From NCBI RefSeq assembly GCF_009659535.1, contig NZ_VJZZ01000006.1:1-64000 (forward strand): 64,000 bases of DNA, in the 5' to 3' direction. The notes beneath the pieces are model-generated. The model worked only from the letters and a program-made list of their open reading frames with translations. It did not search any database and was not told the DNA's origin. The position numbers and the translations under genes were made by a program. Each line of letters opens with the position of its first letter. The stretch's first letter is position 1. Source of the DNA: Aggregicoccus sp. 17bor-14. Its GTDB lineage: Bacteria; Myxococcota; Myxococcia; Myxococcales; Myxococcaceae. Shown one piece after another: positions 26,986-61,921 of this stretch.

Positions 26986-28545
26986 ATGCATCACGGGGTG
27001 AATCGAAGCGGTGGGTGGAGCCTTCCTGCGGCGCTGGGTGCCGCGCTCCTCCTGGCAGTGGGCTGTGGCGCGGAGGGCGAGGCGGGCGCGCCGGGCACTC
27101 CTGGAGCGCCGGGCGCACCGGGGGCCACGGGCTCGCCGGGGGCCACGGGCGCGCCGGGCCCTGCGGGTCCTTCCGGCGCACCGGTGGTGACGCTCAACTC
27201 CTCCGAGCCCGCAGGGGCGCACTGCACCTTCGGCGGCACGAAGCTGGAGTTCGGACCGGACATCGACGGGGACATGCAGCTGGACCCCGGTGAGATCAAC
27301 CCAGCCCTCACCCAGTACCTCTGCCACGGCGAGCCGGGCTTCGCCTGCTGGGACCTCAACACGAACCACGCCTGTGACGTGGGCAGCGAGGACAAGGACG
27401 CGGACGGCAGCTGCACCGTGGCGGACTGCCTCGCGCCCAACGTGACCCAGTACATCCGCAACGGGACCGTCCAGCAGGCGGACTCGAGCTTCAACGTGAG
27501 CGGCTCAGGTGCCGTGGGTGGCACCTTCACGGCGGGCGATCGCGTCCGGGTGCAGACGAACAACGACGGGCTCTACAACGCGACGACGCTGCTCCAGCTG
27601 CGCGCGCCCTCGCAGCCCGGCTACCCGATCACCGACGTGCTGCGCGTGGACAACGCGAGCGGCCTCGCCGCAATCGGCCAGCTGGGCATCGGCTTCATCC
27701 CTGCCTCGGGCGATGGCACGCGGATGATGTGGCACCCCTTCAAGGCCGCGTTCCGCGCCGGCGGCGTGGACGGCAACCTCGGGCACTGGGACGACGCGAA
27801 CGTGGGCTTCTACTCGTGGGCGGGCGGCTTCAACACGCGGGCCTCGGCGAACTACAGCCTCGCCTTCGGCTACTACAACCTGGCCTCCGGCGCCTATGCG
27901 ACGGCCCTGGGCTACAACACCACGGCCAGCGGCATGGGCTCGGCGGCGCTCGGCTACCGTGTGACGGCAGACGGTGCCTACGGCGTCGCGCTCGGCAACC
28001 GCGTGAGCACCAACGGGTTCGACGGCGCCTTCGCCTGGGGCGACGGGTCCACCACGACCGTGCCCTCGAACCTGGTGACGGCGAGCAACCAGTTCGCCAT
28101 CCGCGCGGCGGGCGGCGTGCGGCTCTTCACCAACTCGGGCCTCACCACGGGCGTCAGCCTGAACCCCGGCGGCTCCTCGTGGAACGTGCTCTCCGACCGC
28201 AATGCGAAGACGGCCTTCCAGCCGGTGGACGGTGAGCAGGTGCTCGCGAAGCTCTCGAAGATTCCGCTGCAGACCTGGGTCTACAAGGCCGAGGAGCAGC
28301 AGCCGCGGCACGTGGGCCCGATGGCGCAGGACTTCCACGCGGCCTTCGGCCTCGGCCTGAACGACCGCACCATCAACAGCCTGGACATCGACGGCATCAA
28401 CATGGTCGCCATCCAGGCGCTGGAGAAGCGCACCGAGGAGCTGCAGGCGAGCACCCGCCAGGTGCAGACGCTTCAGCAGGAGGTGGAGCTGCTCAAGCGC
28501 CAGCTGGGCCGCATCGAGCAGGAGCTCGCGCGCCAGAAGCGCTAG
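26986..28545 (+). CDS. Collagen-like lipoprotein with YadA-type head repeats and C-terminal S74 peptidase/chaperone domain
   Basis: The 519-residue product starts with a lipobox (LLLAVGCGAE) and about 12 Gly-X-Y triplets (residues 27-64). A DUF7151-like unit follows (AGAHCTFGGTKLEF...YLCHG), then YadA-head-like repeats (SLAFGYYNLASGAYATALGY). An S74 domain follows, with the Ser-Lys dyad in VLSDRNAKTAF and the downstream VGPMAQDF. The end is a long coiled coil (EELQASTRQVQTLQQEVELL). S74 domains trimerise phage tail fibres and then cut themselves off. The architecture suggests a trimeric surface fibre anchored by lipid. Confidence 0.88.
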   Translation: MHHGVNRSGGWSLPAALGAALLLAVGCGAEGEAGAPGTPGAPGAPGATGSPGATGAPGPAGPSGAPVVTLNSSEPAGAHCTFGGTKLEFGPDIDGDMQLDPGEINPALTQYLCHGEPGFACWDLNTNHACDVGSEDKDADGSCTVADCLAPNVTQYIRNGTVQQADSSFNVSGSGAVGGTFTAGDRVRVQTNNDGLYNATTLLQLRAPSQPGYPITDVLRVDNASGLAAIGQLGIGFIPASGDGTRMMWHPFKAAFRAGGVDGNLGHWDDANVGFYSWAGGFNTRASANYSLAFGYYNLASGAYATALGYNTTASGMGSAALGYRVTADGAYGVALGNRVSTNGFDGAFAWGDGSTTTVPSNLVTASNQFAIRAAGGVRLFTNSGLTTGVSLNPGGSSWNVLSDRNAKTAFQPVDGEQVLAKLSKIPLQTWVYKAEEQQPRHVGPMAQDFHAAFGLGLNDRTINSLDIDGINMVAIQALEKRTEELQASTRQVQTLQQEVELLKRQLGRIEQELARQKR

Positions 28546-28597: not shown

Positions 28598-29710
28598 TCA
28601 GTAGCTGTCGCTGGAGCCGCCGCCGCCGGAGCTGCCACCGCCGCCGGGGCTGCCACCGCCACCGCCCCAGCCGCCTCCGCCGCCTCCACCCCAGCCGCCG
28701 CCTCCGCCGCCCCAGCCACCTCCGCCGCCGAAGAAGGGCGGGAAGAACATGATGCCGCGCCGGCGCCGGCGCCCGCCGCCTCCGCCGCGGAACATGTTGA
28801 AGAGGAAGAAGGCGAAGAAGGCGGCCATGAGGCAGCCCACGCCGCCGAAGCCCGTGTCGCCCGAGGGCTCGCGCGAGGTGGGGCGCGCGGGCAGGGGCGC
28901 GGCGCCCGGCAGCGGCTGGCCGGTCACGGCGATGGCCATGGCGTTGGTGCCGTCCGCCACGGCGTCGTAGTAGCGGTTCTCCTTCAGCGCGGGCTTCACG
29001 TACTTCTGCAGGATGTCGAAGGTCTGCAGGTCGGTGAGCTCACCGCCCACGCCCTTGCCCGTCTCGATGCGCACCCGGCGCTCGCGCGGCGCGATGACCA
29101 GCAGCGCGCCGTTGTCCTTGCCGGCGCTGCCGATCTTCCAGGTGTTGAAGGCCGCGTAGGCCACGTCCTCGATGGTCTCGCCGCCCAGCGTGTCCACGAC
29201 GAAGACGGCGACCTTGAAGTCGCTCTGCCGGTCCAGCGCGTTGAGGCGCTGGTTCAGCGTCGCGCGCTCCTCGGCGCTCAGCACGCCGGCCGTGTCCGTG
29301 ACGTAGCCCTGCAGGGGCGGCGGGCGATAGGGGCCGCTCGAGGGGCGCGCCGCCTCGTCGTCCTGCGGAAGGGCCGCGGGGCCGCCGCGCGCGGCCGGGG
29401 TCTCGGCCGGGGGCGAGTCCGTCGCGGGCGTGGCACCCGGGCGCGCGTCGTCCTTGCGCCCGTCGTCAGGGGCCTGCTGCGCGCCACCGCTGCTGCGCGG
29501 CGAGGGCGGTGCCTCGTCGGGGCCTGCGGAGGCGGGGGGCGCTGCAGGGCTGCGCGGCGCCTGCGTCTCGGGACGCCGGGCCGGGGGCAGGGGCTGCAGC
29601 GAGGACTGGTTCTGCGCCTGCGCGCTCGCGGCGCCCAGGAGCAGCGCGCAGGAGAGGGCGGCGGCCGCCGCGGGGCGCGCGTGCCGCCGGGCTGCCGCCG
29701 CGAGGGCCAT
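28598..29710 (-). CDS. TPM-domain (YgcG-type) membrane protein with Gly-rich C-terminus
   Basis: The 370-residue product has a signal peptide, a disordered Pro/Ala/Ser-rich linker (about residues 35-130) and a TPM domain opening LQGYVTDTAGVLSAEERA (about 133-255), with DNGALLVIAPRERRVRIETG. One transmembrane helix (GCLMAAFFAFFLFNMF) follows, then a basic RRRRR cluster and a tail of mostly Gly, Trp and Ser ending SSDSY. TPM/YgcG proteins are usually paired with LemA, as here. Their role is uncertain: photosystem-repair phosphatase in plants, envelope maintenance in bacteria. ATG overlaps the lemA stop by 1 nt (TGATG). Confidence 0.88.
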   Translation of the reverse strand: MALAAAARRHARPAAAAALSCALLLGAASAQAQNQSSLQPLPPARRPETQAPRSPAAPPASAGPDEAPPSPRSSGGAQQAPDDGRKDDARPGATPATDSPPAETPAARGGPAALPQDDEAARPSSGPYRPPPLQGYVTDTAGVLSAEERATLNQRLNALDRQSDFKVAVFVVDTLGGETIEDVAYAAFNTWKIGSAGKDNGALLVIAPRERRVRIETGKGVGGELTDLQTFDILQKYVKPALKENRYYDAVADGTNAMAIAVTGQPLPGAAPLPARPTSREPSGDTGFGGVGCLMAAFFAFFLFNMFRGGGGGRRRRRGIMFFPPFFGGGGGWGGGGGGWGGGGGGGWGGGGGSPGGGGSSGGGGSSDSY

Positions 29711-30318
29711 CAGAAGTTCACCTTGGGGGCGGCCTGGGACTCGGGGCTGGCGCGGAAGTACTGGCGGGGCTTGAAGGTGCCGCCCGTGGCGCGCTTCACC
29801 ACCGCGCCGCCAATCTTGCCGAGCTCCGCGTTGTAGTCGGCGACGGCCGCGTTGTACTGCTCGCGCGAGCGCAGGATGCGGTTCTCGGTGCCCTCCAGCT
29901 GCACCTGCAGGCCGCGGAAGTTCTCGTTGCTCTTGAGCTCGGGGTACTTCTCCTGCACCACCAGCAGGCGGCTCAGCGCGCTGGTCAGCCCCTCCTGGGC
30001 CTTCTGGAACGCGGCCACCTTGGCGGGGTCCTGCAGGTCCTCGCCGCTCAGCTGGATGCTCGTCGCCTTGGCGCGCGCCTCGAGCACCCCGGTGAGGATG
30101 TCCTTCTCCGAGGCGGCCGCCGCCTTCACGGTGTTCACCAGGTTGGGGATGAGGTCCGCGCGCCGCTGCAGCTGGGCCTCGAGGTCCGCCCAGCGCTGCT
30201 CGCACACCTGGTCCTTCTCGATGAGGACGTCGTACTTCTGACAGCCGGGCAGCAGCGCCACACCGAGGGCGACCAGCACCGGCACCACCAGGGCTCTGCG
30301 AAGGGAAGAGGGGCGCAT
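29710..30318 (-). CDS. lemA: LemA family lipoprotein
   Basis: The 202-residue product has a lipobox-like LLPGCQKYD followed by the LemA helical domain: LIEKDQVCEQRWADLEAQLQ, RRADLIPNLVNTVKAAA, and YPELKSNENFRGLQVQLEG, which is almost the family consensus. LemA proteins are membrane-tethered helical bundles of unknown biochemical role. I prefer the ATG at 30318, which has GAGAG upstream, over the ATG at 30333 five codons earlier. It is the first gene of a two-gene operon with the TPM protein. Confidence 0.93.
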   Translation of the reverse strand: MRPSSLRRALVVPVLVALGVALLPGCQKYDVLIEKDQVCEQRWADLEAQLQRRADLIPNLVNTVKAAAASEKDILTGVLEARAKATSIQLSGEDLQDPAKVAAFQKAQEGLTSALSRLLVVQEKYPELKSNENFRGLQVQLEGTENRILRSREQYNAAVADYNAELGKIGGAVVKRATGGTFKPRQYFRASPESQAAPKVNF

Positions 30319-30482
30319 AGGGCTCTCGTGCATAGGAACTTCAAGGTAAGGACCGCGTGATGCAGGGACAATAAGCAGCCCGCGGCGCAGTCAAGGCGGA
30401 TGCGGCCAGGCGGCCGAGCGGCTCACACCCTGCTTTGGAGGTTGCGCCGGCGCGCCCGCTCCTGCAGAGAGTCCGCTTCCCG

Positions 30483-59686: not shown

Positions 59687-61921
59687 ATGAACCGGGGAAC
59701 TCCGAGGGCCCTGCTGGGGCGAGTCGTGCTGCTGTCCGCCGCGCTGGCCATTACCGCCTGTACGCAGGGTCCCGCCGGAGCCGAGGGGAACGGGGGGCCC
59801 GCGGGTCCTGCTGGCCCCGCCGGCGCCAAGGGGGACCCGGGCGCTGCAGGCGCTGCGGGCGCTGCGGGCAGCAACGGGCAGAACACGGTGACGCGCACCA
59901 CGCCCGAGGACCCGGGCGCACACTGCGTGAGCGGCGGCTTCCGGGTGGACATGGGCCTCGACGCCAACGCCAACGGCGTCCTCGACGACGCGGAGCGGAA
60001 CGCGGCGCTCACGAACTACCTCTGCAACGGCCTCGCGGGCCCGCAGGGCGGGACCGGCCCTCAGGGCGCCCCGGGCCCGAGCGGCATCACGACGTTGGTG
60101 CGCACCACCTCCCAGGCGCCCGGCGCGGACTGCGCCACGGGAGGCCTCAAGGTCGAGTCCGCGCTCGATGCCAACGCCAACGGCAACATCGACCCGGGTG
60201 AGGTGATCGACTCGGCCACCCGGTACGTGTGCAACGGCTCCCAGGGCGTCATGGGCCCGATGGGGCCTCAGGGCGCGACCGGGGTGCAGGGGGCTGCGGG
60301 GCCCAAGGGTGACGATGGTGCCACCGGGCCTGCAGGTCCGCAGGGCGCGACCGGCGCAACGGGCGCGACCGGCGCCCAGGGCCCGCAGGGAGCCACGGGC
60401 GCTACCGGTGCCACGGGCGCTACCGGTGCCACGGGCGCTCGCGGGAGTGACGGCACGTCCACGCTCGCGCGCACCTCGCCCGAGGCGCCTGGCGCGAACT
60501 GCGCCACCGGCGGCGTGAAGCTCGAGTTCGGTCTCGACTTCAACGGCAACGGCACGCTCGATACCGGCGAGCTCGACCTCGCGGCCACCCGCTTCGTGTG
60601 CAACGGCGCGCAGGGTCCGCAGGGTGCCACGGGTGCTACCGGCGCGACGGGCGCCACGGGTGCAAGCGGCCTCAATGCGGCGTTCTCCACCACGGCCGAG
60701 GCCCCAGGCCCCAACTGCGCCACGGGCGGCGTGAAGCTGCAGAGTGGCCTGGACGGCAACGGAAACGGCACGCTGGACGCAGGTGAGGTGATCGCGGCGC
60801 ACACGCGCTACGTGTGCAACGGCGCGCAGGGCCCCCAAGGAGTGCAGGGCGCTCAGGGCCCCGCCGGCGCCACGGGCGCGACGGGCGCGCAAGGCCCCGC
60901 GGGCGCGACGGGCGCGCAAGGTCCTCAGGGCCCGGTCGGCGCGACGGGTGCGACGGGCGCCACCGGCGCGACGGGCGCGACCGGCGCCACCGGTGCGACG
61001 GGTCCGCAGGGTCCGGCCGGCACGTTGGGCATCTTCGGCGACGGCTCGTCCGGGGCGCTGACGGTGAGCAGTCCGCTGGACCTGACCACGCCCGCGGGAG
61101 TCAACACCCTGCCGGGTGGGCTCAACATGCAGTACACGGACATCACCATCTCCAGCACCCTCGTCGTGCCGAGCGGGACCGTGCTGCGCGCCACCGGTAA
61201 CGTGAACGTCACGGGGACGGGCAGCATCGTCGTGGCGCCGGGCGCGCAGGACAACGGCACGGCGCGGCCGCTCGCAGGCGTCGCGCTCTCCGCGGCGAGC
61301 ACTCCCGTGGGCGGCGTCGGGTTGGGAACGATCCAGGCCAGCCGCGCGTTCGTGGCCGGCCTCCTCGGCGGCGGTGCGGGCGCCCGGCCCACCAACAACG
61401 TCACCGGCTCAGAGGGGGGCGGCGCGTTCACGCTCCTGGCCCGGGGCAACATCACCGTCGCCTCCGGCGCCATCATCAACGCGAACGGCCGCGCTTCGGT
61501 GAACCTGAACACCGCGGGGCTGGGCATCACGGGCGGCGGCGGCGGTGGCGGCGGCGTGGTGGCCCTGCTCGCCAAGGGCACCGTCACCGTGGCGGGGACC
61601 ATCCAGGCCAACGGCGGCGCGGGTGCGTCCGGCTTCGACGGCAACGGCGGCAACGCCGAGGGCGGCGGCGGCGGCGGTGGCGGCGGCATCGTGGCGCTGC
61701 TCGCCTCGGCCACGCCGTCCGTCACGGGCTCCATCCAGGTGAGCGGCGGCGCGGCCGGCGCCAACGCGGGCGCCAGCGCGACCATCAACCCGGGCGGCGG
61801 CGGTGGGGCCTGCGGTGGCAACGGCGGAGCGGCGGGGCAGACCACGTCCACGGTCTCGGCCGGCGCCTCGGGGTACTCCTTCAACATCGTGGTGCCCAGC
61901 CCCGAGAACCTCTACCGCTAG
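59687..61921 (+). CDS. Collagen-like lipoprotein with four DUF7151-type domains
   Basis: The 744-residue product begins with a lipoprotein signal ([12 protein letters not shown]) and then alternates Gly-X-Y stretches with four ~50-residue units of the form GA-C-xTGGxKx-G-D-N-NG-LD-GE-YVCNG (DUF7151-like, one disulfide each). The triplets are dominated by GAT, GPQ and GPA. After the last collagen block (about residue 445) comes a Gly-rich beta domain with [16 protein letters not shown]-type repeats, ending PSPENLYR. It is probably a surface filament or adhesin. Start ATG at 59687; the upstream GTGAGATGG gives a weak ribosome site. Confidence 0.88.
60333..61020 (+). repeat. Tandem 9-bp Gly-X-Y coding repeats (interrupted)
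   Basis: Blocks of near-identical 9-bp units such as GGCGCGACG and GGTGCCACG run at about 60333-60446, 60617-60671 and 60860-61020. Each encodes a collagen triplet (mostly Gly-Ala-Thr). Slippage here would lengthen or shorten the triple helix without a frameshift. Confidence 0.65.

Follow-up and report, generated by a model that had tools for sequence, protein, structure and literature searches.

The locus analysed here raises the question of why a bacterial lipoprotein ends in a chaperone domain of the type known from phage tail fibres, and whether such a protein is a fibre of the cell or a piece of a phage. The gene lies in a window of 64,000 nucleotides from Aggregicoccus sp. 17bor-14 (contig NZ_VJZZ01000006.1), and its product, termed P0001, is real and explained by homology: it is a probable S74 fibre held by lipid and by a stalk of collagen and DUF7151 (Table 1).

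Table 1. Features of P0001 and of a second gene of the same window with a similar stalk.
Feature	Positions	Strand	Residues	Basis
P0001, whole gene; predicted trimeric-fibre lipoprotein with S74 end domain	26986..28545	+	519 aa	open frame
Signal peptide ending in lipobox LAVGC, predicted lipid site Cys27	26986..27066	+	1-27	sequence
Collagen, 13 Gly-X-Y triplets immediately after Cys27	27067..27183	+	28-66	
DUF7151 unit (Cys pair, acidic loop)	27199..27324	+	72-113	Pfam PF23657
Cys-rich acidic module, CWDLN..N..CD..ED.DADGSC...DC	27346..27429	+	121-148	sequence
MMWHPFKAAFRAG motif ahead of head	27724..27762	+	247-259	relatives' conservation
YadA-type head, about five 14-residue repeats	27835..28044	+	~284-353	Pfam, period, PDB profiles
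S74/ICA intramolecular chaperone core	28192..28347	+	403-454	Pfam, fold, dyad conservation
Dyad codon, Ser403	28192-28194	+	403	
Dyad codon, Lys408	28207-28209	+	408	
Long C-terminal helix (coiled coil) of S74 domain	28378..28539	+	465-518	structure model
Collagen lipoprotein with four DUF7151 units, stalk like that of P0001, separate gene	59687..61921	+		profile and alignment

The original prediction had read Gly-X-Y triplets, a DUF7151-like unit, YadA-type head repeats, a lipobox and a phage-type S74 chaperone with a Ser-Lys dyad from the letters, and all of these parts were recovered, the lipid anchor as a putative one. The collagen Pfam model reached 26.7 bits (E 4.6e-6), 0.5 bit under its cut-off of 27.2, and despite this score the Gly-X-Y run is far from chance, with 13 perfect triplets in the protein, whereas none of 20,000 shuffled versions had more than 7. 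The DUF7151 match is above the Pfam cut-off (E 5.6e-9). What had been overlooked is the Cys-rich acidic module behind it, for which no Pfam model gave a match in P0001 and a search for phage relatives found none; the protein contains seven cysteines, all within residues 27-148, namely the lipid cysteine and six in the DUF7151 unit and this module. A beta region follows in order after the module and ahead of the head, and many positions of the MMWHPFKAAFRAG motif are invariant in eight relatives and at least 90% conserved in 40 relatives. In the head, YadA_head (PF05658) scored 33.9 bits against a cut-off of 25 (E 3.9e-8; best stretch 300-324), and the period is 14 residues, as lag 14 gives 29 identities in 77 and the other lags from 10 to 19 give 2-12. 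The profile of the head family matched the BpaC, YadA and UspA1 heads in the PDB (7o23, 9.1e-30; 1p9h, 1.2e-14). A single-sequence search of the PDB with P0001 placed 8zxl on top, which was set aside as a low-complexity match to collagen, and an NCBIfam search with P0001 gave nothing close to a cut-off.

The Peptidase_S74 model matched with 47 bits against a cut-off of 22 (E 3.2e-12), and P0001 scored 50.8 bits in an S74 profile search of the genome. The single-chain model of the full-length protein was poor (pLDDT 60.1, pTM 0.45, stalk below 50), and its Foldseek matches, with the MyRF ICA domain as the best at E 0.45, point only to the S74 end. The model of fragment 371-519 had a pLDDT of 93.5 and shows an ICA fold that ends in a long helix, and its best Foldseek match was the MyRF ICA domain (probability 1.00, E 1.8e-3). 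The four best VIA-align matches of this fragment are the ICA structures 7dc3, 3gw6, 3gud and 4uw8, with Z scores of 6.7, 6.0, 5.7 and 5.3 versus 4.5 for the best unrelated helix, all of them below 8, a range in which, as the tool itself warns, matches may arise by chance. The coiled coil that had been proposed to stand behind the lipobox exists, not as a separate part but within the S74 domain, of which it is the final helix.

The dyad residues Ser403 and Lys408, spaced by five, are kept in all 79 homologues with letters at these positions in set A3 (80 rows, one gap), which is made up of P0001 and of 79 loci selected for similarity from the matches listed, as well as in 47/47 members of A5 and 14/14 of A2. 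Ser....Lys is also present in 76 of 78 additional S74 ORFs from the host's order; a script found 72 of these, and four more (L234, L235, L236 and L238) were assigned by eye from six printed tails. It is absent from L232, which has a Cys, and from L237. According to the reports on T5 and MyRF, the former is cut at Thr1263|Ser1264 with Lys1269 and the latter at Pro586|Ser587 with Lys592, and cleavage needs correct trimer formation in both (PMC4690869, PMC8326128). By analogy with this Ser/Lys spacing, P0001 would be cut at Leu402|Ser403, inside the VLSDRNAK motif and not between the motif and the head repeats as had been suggested, and the products would be a lipid-anchored part of 376 residues and a chaperone of 117 residues. 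The trimerization of P0001, the folding role of its S74 domain, and autocleavage are likewise predicted from homology to the solved relatives.

At the other end, the signal peptide terminates in a lipobox cysteine, as in bacterial lipoproteins, and LAVGC fits the classical lipobox rule; lipidation is predicted from this pattern. Gly26-Cys27 is invariant in 8/8 aligned relatives (A1), and a regular expression found a lipobox in 36 of the 37 head-type S74 homologues of the host's order. P0001 has Gly at sorting position +2 and Ala at +7. The +2 residue is never Lys in the 37 homologues, and +7 is Ala in only eight of them and is therefore not a conserved sorting signal. For Myxococcus xanthus, a sorting study gives Lys at +2 in 8/12 inner-membrane lipoproteins and Ala at +7 in 7/10 matrix lipoproteins, and states that FibA A27D was kept out of the matrix (PMC3222651). 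The +2 and +7 letters of P0001 and the +2 residues of its relatives speak for the outer membrane or the matrix over the inner membrane, and for nothing beyond that; surface exposure and an adhesive role are a guess.

The model that we favor, and consider somewhat probable, is that P0001 is an outer-membrane lipoprotein that forms a short homotrimeric fibre, in which the S74 domain registers the chains and then cuts itself off, and the lipid-tethered YadA-type head remains for adhesion. P0001 would be exported by Sec and lipidated at Cys27, and three chains would meet at the C-terminal S74 domain, the helices of which would form a trimeric coiled coil and thereby set the register of the adjoining triple-stranded head. 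With the head properly wound, Ser403 would use Lys408 as its activator to cut the Leu402-Ser403 bond and release the 117-residue chaperone. In the remaining fibre, three chains of 376 residues would each be held by a lipid; next would come the collagen stalk of 13 triplets, which the two disulfide-rich acidic modules would stiffen, and at the tip the YadA-type head, which would adhere to matrix, kin or prey.

The most serious competitor of this model differs from it in location: the same trimeric, self-cut lipoprotein could reside on the periplasmic leaflet of the outer membrane and serve as a structural spacer and not as a surface adhesin. We regard this as unlikely, though not to be dismissed lightly. 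Lol sorting delivers lipoproteins to the inner leaflet by default, the outer membrane would be a difficult barrier for a folded and disulfide-bonded trimer, with six cysteines besides Cys27, and directly beside the gene no dedicated exporter was seen. On the other hand, most of the ten best PDB profile matches of the head family are named adhesins or surface proteins, the +7 Ala of P0001 fits matrix sorting (PMC3222651), and the MAT fibres of Bdellovibrio, some of which have the same S74 end, are surface-displayed (PMC10769870).

Two further readings question the cut and the cellular nature of the fibre, respectively. That the S74 domain is a permanent trimerization cap that no longer cuts is improbable in our opinion; seven A1 relatives have Cys-Thr before the serine and P0001 has Val-Leu, but Ser and Lys are invariant in the head family, and the residue preceding the serine is not fixed, because the cut follows Pro in MyRF and Thr in T5 (PMC4690869, PMC8326128). 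Still less credible, and indeed very improbable, is that P0001 is what remains of a phage tail or injection system, or a part of one that has been domesticated. PHROGs profiles of tail fibres and virion proteins match the head and the S74 domain (phrog_8003, 7.4e-10; phrog_1980, 1.8e-9), and tail-fibre-like S74 ORFs without signal peptide occur in the host's order (17/78). However, P0001 has a signal peptide with lipobox, in the tree its head/S74 half falls together with genes of Myxococcaceae (SH-aLRT 83), its nearest neighbors, coding for a DPP IV-type peptidase, TPM and LemA, include no phage gene, and only eight phage records match it, with at most 34.5% identity over residues 318-486.

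A bacterial fibre with a phage-type chaperone had been considered unusual, and this view did not hold: of the 587 matches listed from a pattern search of bacterial and archaeal genomes, 557 encode relatives, and the Bdellovibrio MATs have been published (PMC10769870). Among the matches listed, the loci of relatives belong to Myxococcota, Bacteroidota, Gemmatimonadota, Planctomycetota, Chloroflexota, Verrucomicrobiota and others, and YadA-head/S74 proteins are spread across many phyla; viral contigs contributed 35 candidate loci. Pfam found S74 in 79 of the 80 members of A3, YadA_head in 49, collagen in 12, and DUF7151 in P0001 only. None of the six proteins flanking P0001 was found beside 24 homologue loci, and neither was a secretion partner; a promoter and terminator scan at P0001 gave nothing useful. 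Downstream of P0001 and convergent with it, a TPM-domain protein with a long Gly-rich tail (28598-30333, minus strand) stands beside LemA, an ordinary pair. The genome has no second S74 gene (one match in the profile search) and a single YadA_head locus, and therefore no local fibre repertoire as in Bdellovibrio.

In the host's order, S74 occurs in 63 of 145 genomes (92 matches) and DUF7151 in 96. The 92 S74 ORFs comprise 14 that were seen first and 78 that were fetched later, the latter being 37 of the FRAG-head type, 17 with an HTHxG start and no signal peptide, and 24 others, among them Cys-rich lipoproteins with Gly/Ser linkers. Collagen of at least five triplets is present in 19 of the 37 head-type proteins, and the Myxococcaceae have dozens of lipobox versions of the head/S74 protein, about half of them with collagen. 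The combination of a collagen/DUF7151 stalk with an S74 head is found in one of the 92 ORFs, P0001, a count based on a DUF7151 pattern that finds P0001, is negative in the 78 and can miss diverged units, and on the absence of the unit from the 13 other rows of the A2 alignment. The stalk modules are absent from most relatives, and therefore stalk and head need not act together. A shorter Cys-Gly-Gly...Cys-Asn/His-Gly unit lies between collagen runs in L162, L163 and L199. In eight Myxococcota lipoproteins (L012-L015, L186, L187, L224, L226) with a Gly/Ser-rich linker and a Cys-rich domain, S74 follows directly after a CAPxC-type motif, and there are no head repeats. The S74 proteins without signal peptide (L173, L175, L189, L215, L225 and others) start like MSDPFYPAKSGDPILADTWNNMQ and carry HTHxG, and this type (17/78 ORFs) resembles the tail fibres found in phages or in injection systems. 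One record titled Comamonas sp. KCTC 72670 (L054, BNCN01000001.1) contains a copy that falls within the Myxococcus rows of the tree and is probably mislabelled.

With respect to origin, P0001 joins two local families, because its stalk resembles collagen/DUF7151 lipoproteins and its head/S74 half resembles Myxococcaceae lipoproteins. The stalk shares 48% identity over 91 aa with a 744-aa protein of the same window; with a collagen/DUF7151 lipoprotein on contig C2, the identity is 40% over 88 aa. The former is a lipobox protein in which four DUF7151 units (8.2e-61) alternate with collagen, and its C-terminal half is Gly-rich. Copies of the Cys-rich acidic module (CWDLN.N...ED.N.DG...DC) also lie within or next to collagen in L240 and L241, from two other genomes of the host's order. 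For the head/S74 half, the closest resemblance is to the head/S74 lipoproteins of Myxococcaceae (up to 58% over 250 kept columns), and this half joins them in a tree from which rows L071 and L097 were left out, as the script's pattern found no S74 motif there. The support is only 83 (SH-aLRT) and the position is outside their starred 99% clade, and therefore this half may have been acquired by a separate transfer. Our tentative and rather doubtful generalization is that Myxococcaceae carry on their surface a family of lipid-tethered, self-trimming recognition fibres, which parallel the MATs in function and are independently anchored, and in which S74 registers the lipid-proximal collagen as well, and that P0001 would be a recombinant with stalk swapping in progress.

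Surface-displayed, self-cleaving S74 adhesins are already known from the Bdellovibrio MATs, and the less usual aspect is the exact domain mix of P0001; in the open-licence PMC literature, we found no paper on this combination or on DUF7151, and Myxococcus S74 fibres may figure among the other bacteria in the supplementary tables of PMC10769870. If our model is true, lipoprotein anchoring would be a second bacterial route to surface fibres via a phage-type self-cleaving chaperone, and a testable set of candidates for recognition fibres of the Bdellovibrio kind would become available in myxobacteria, which are predators too. For makers of recombinant collagens, a short collagen whose register is set by a removable C-terminal clamp would be relevant as well.

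Among the known systems, the Myxococcaceae proteins L003-L009, L039-L053 and L085 share with P0001 a signal peptide with Cys, the FRAG motif, a YadA-like head and S74, and the alignments cover 330-413 columns at about 43-48% identity, but these lipobox/head/S74 proteins have no DUF7151, and they carry additional head repeats and Cys pairs that are absent from P0001. Fibres and spikes of phages with S74, such as T5 pb1 and the K1F endosialidase, have the same ICA fold and Ser-Lys dyad, whereas they are virion parts with other receptor-binding domains and no lipid anchor. The closest viral S74 folds, A0A481ZDH5 and A0A481ZG68 of Pithovirus, are giant-virus proteins, and their names designate them as collagen-repeat or YadA-head proteins. 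The head of 14-residue repeats is shared with YadA-type trimeric autotransporters, but P0001 is not a type Vc autotransporter, because the C-terminal YadA anchor barrel was not found among Pfam matches up to E 10 and the C-terminus consists of S74 and its helix; with the lipid anchor at the N-terminus, the orientation is reversed. A probable functional parallel is provided by the Bdellovibrio MATs, as described in PMC10769870. These are exported trimers of a predatory bacterium with the N-terminus thought to be at the cell, and 13 of the 21 end in S74 with SDxxxK; Bd3182, the one tested, self-cleaves at the S74 Ser, S782A blocks this, and all C-terminally tagged MATs tested were detected on the surface. 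MATs such as Bd3182 and P0001 are alike in signal peptide, mosaic architecture and C-terminal S74 with SDxxxK. All 21 MATs have a beta-rich domain of ~130 aa right after the signal peptide, where P0001 has lipobox and collagen, and the tip of Bd3182 is beta-helical, that of P0001 a YadA-type head. P0001 is not filed as a MAT because it is without the MAT N-terminal domain, a distinction of anatomy alone, and it probably works like one.
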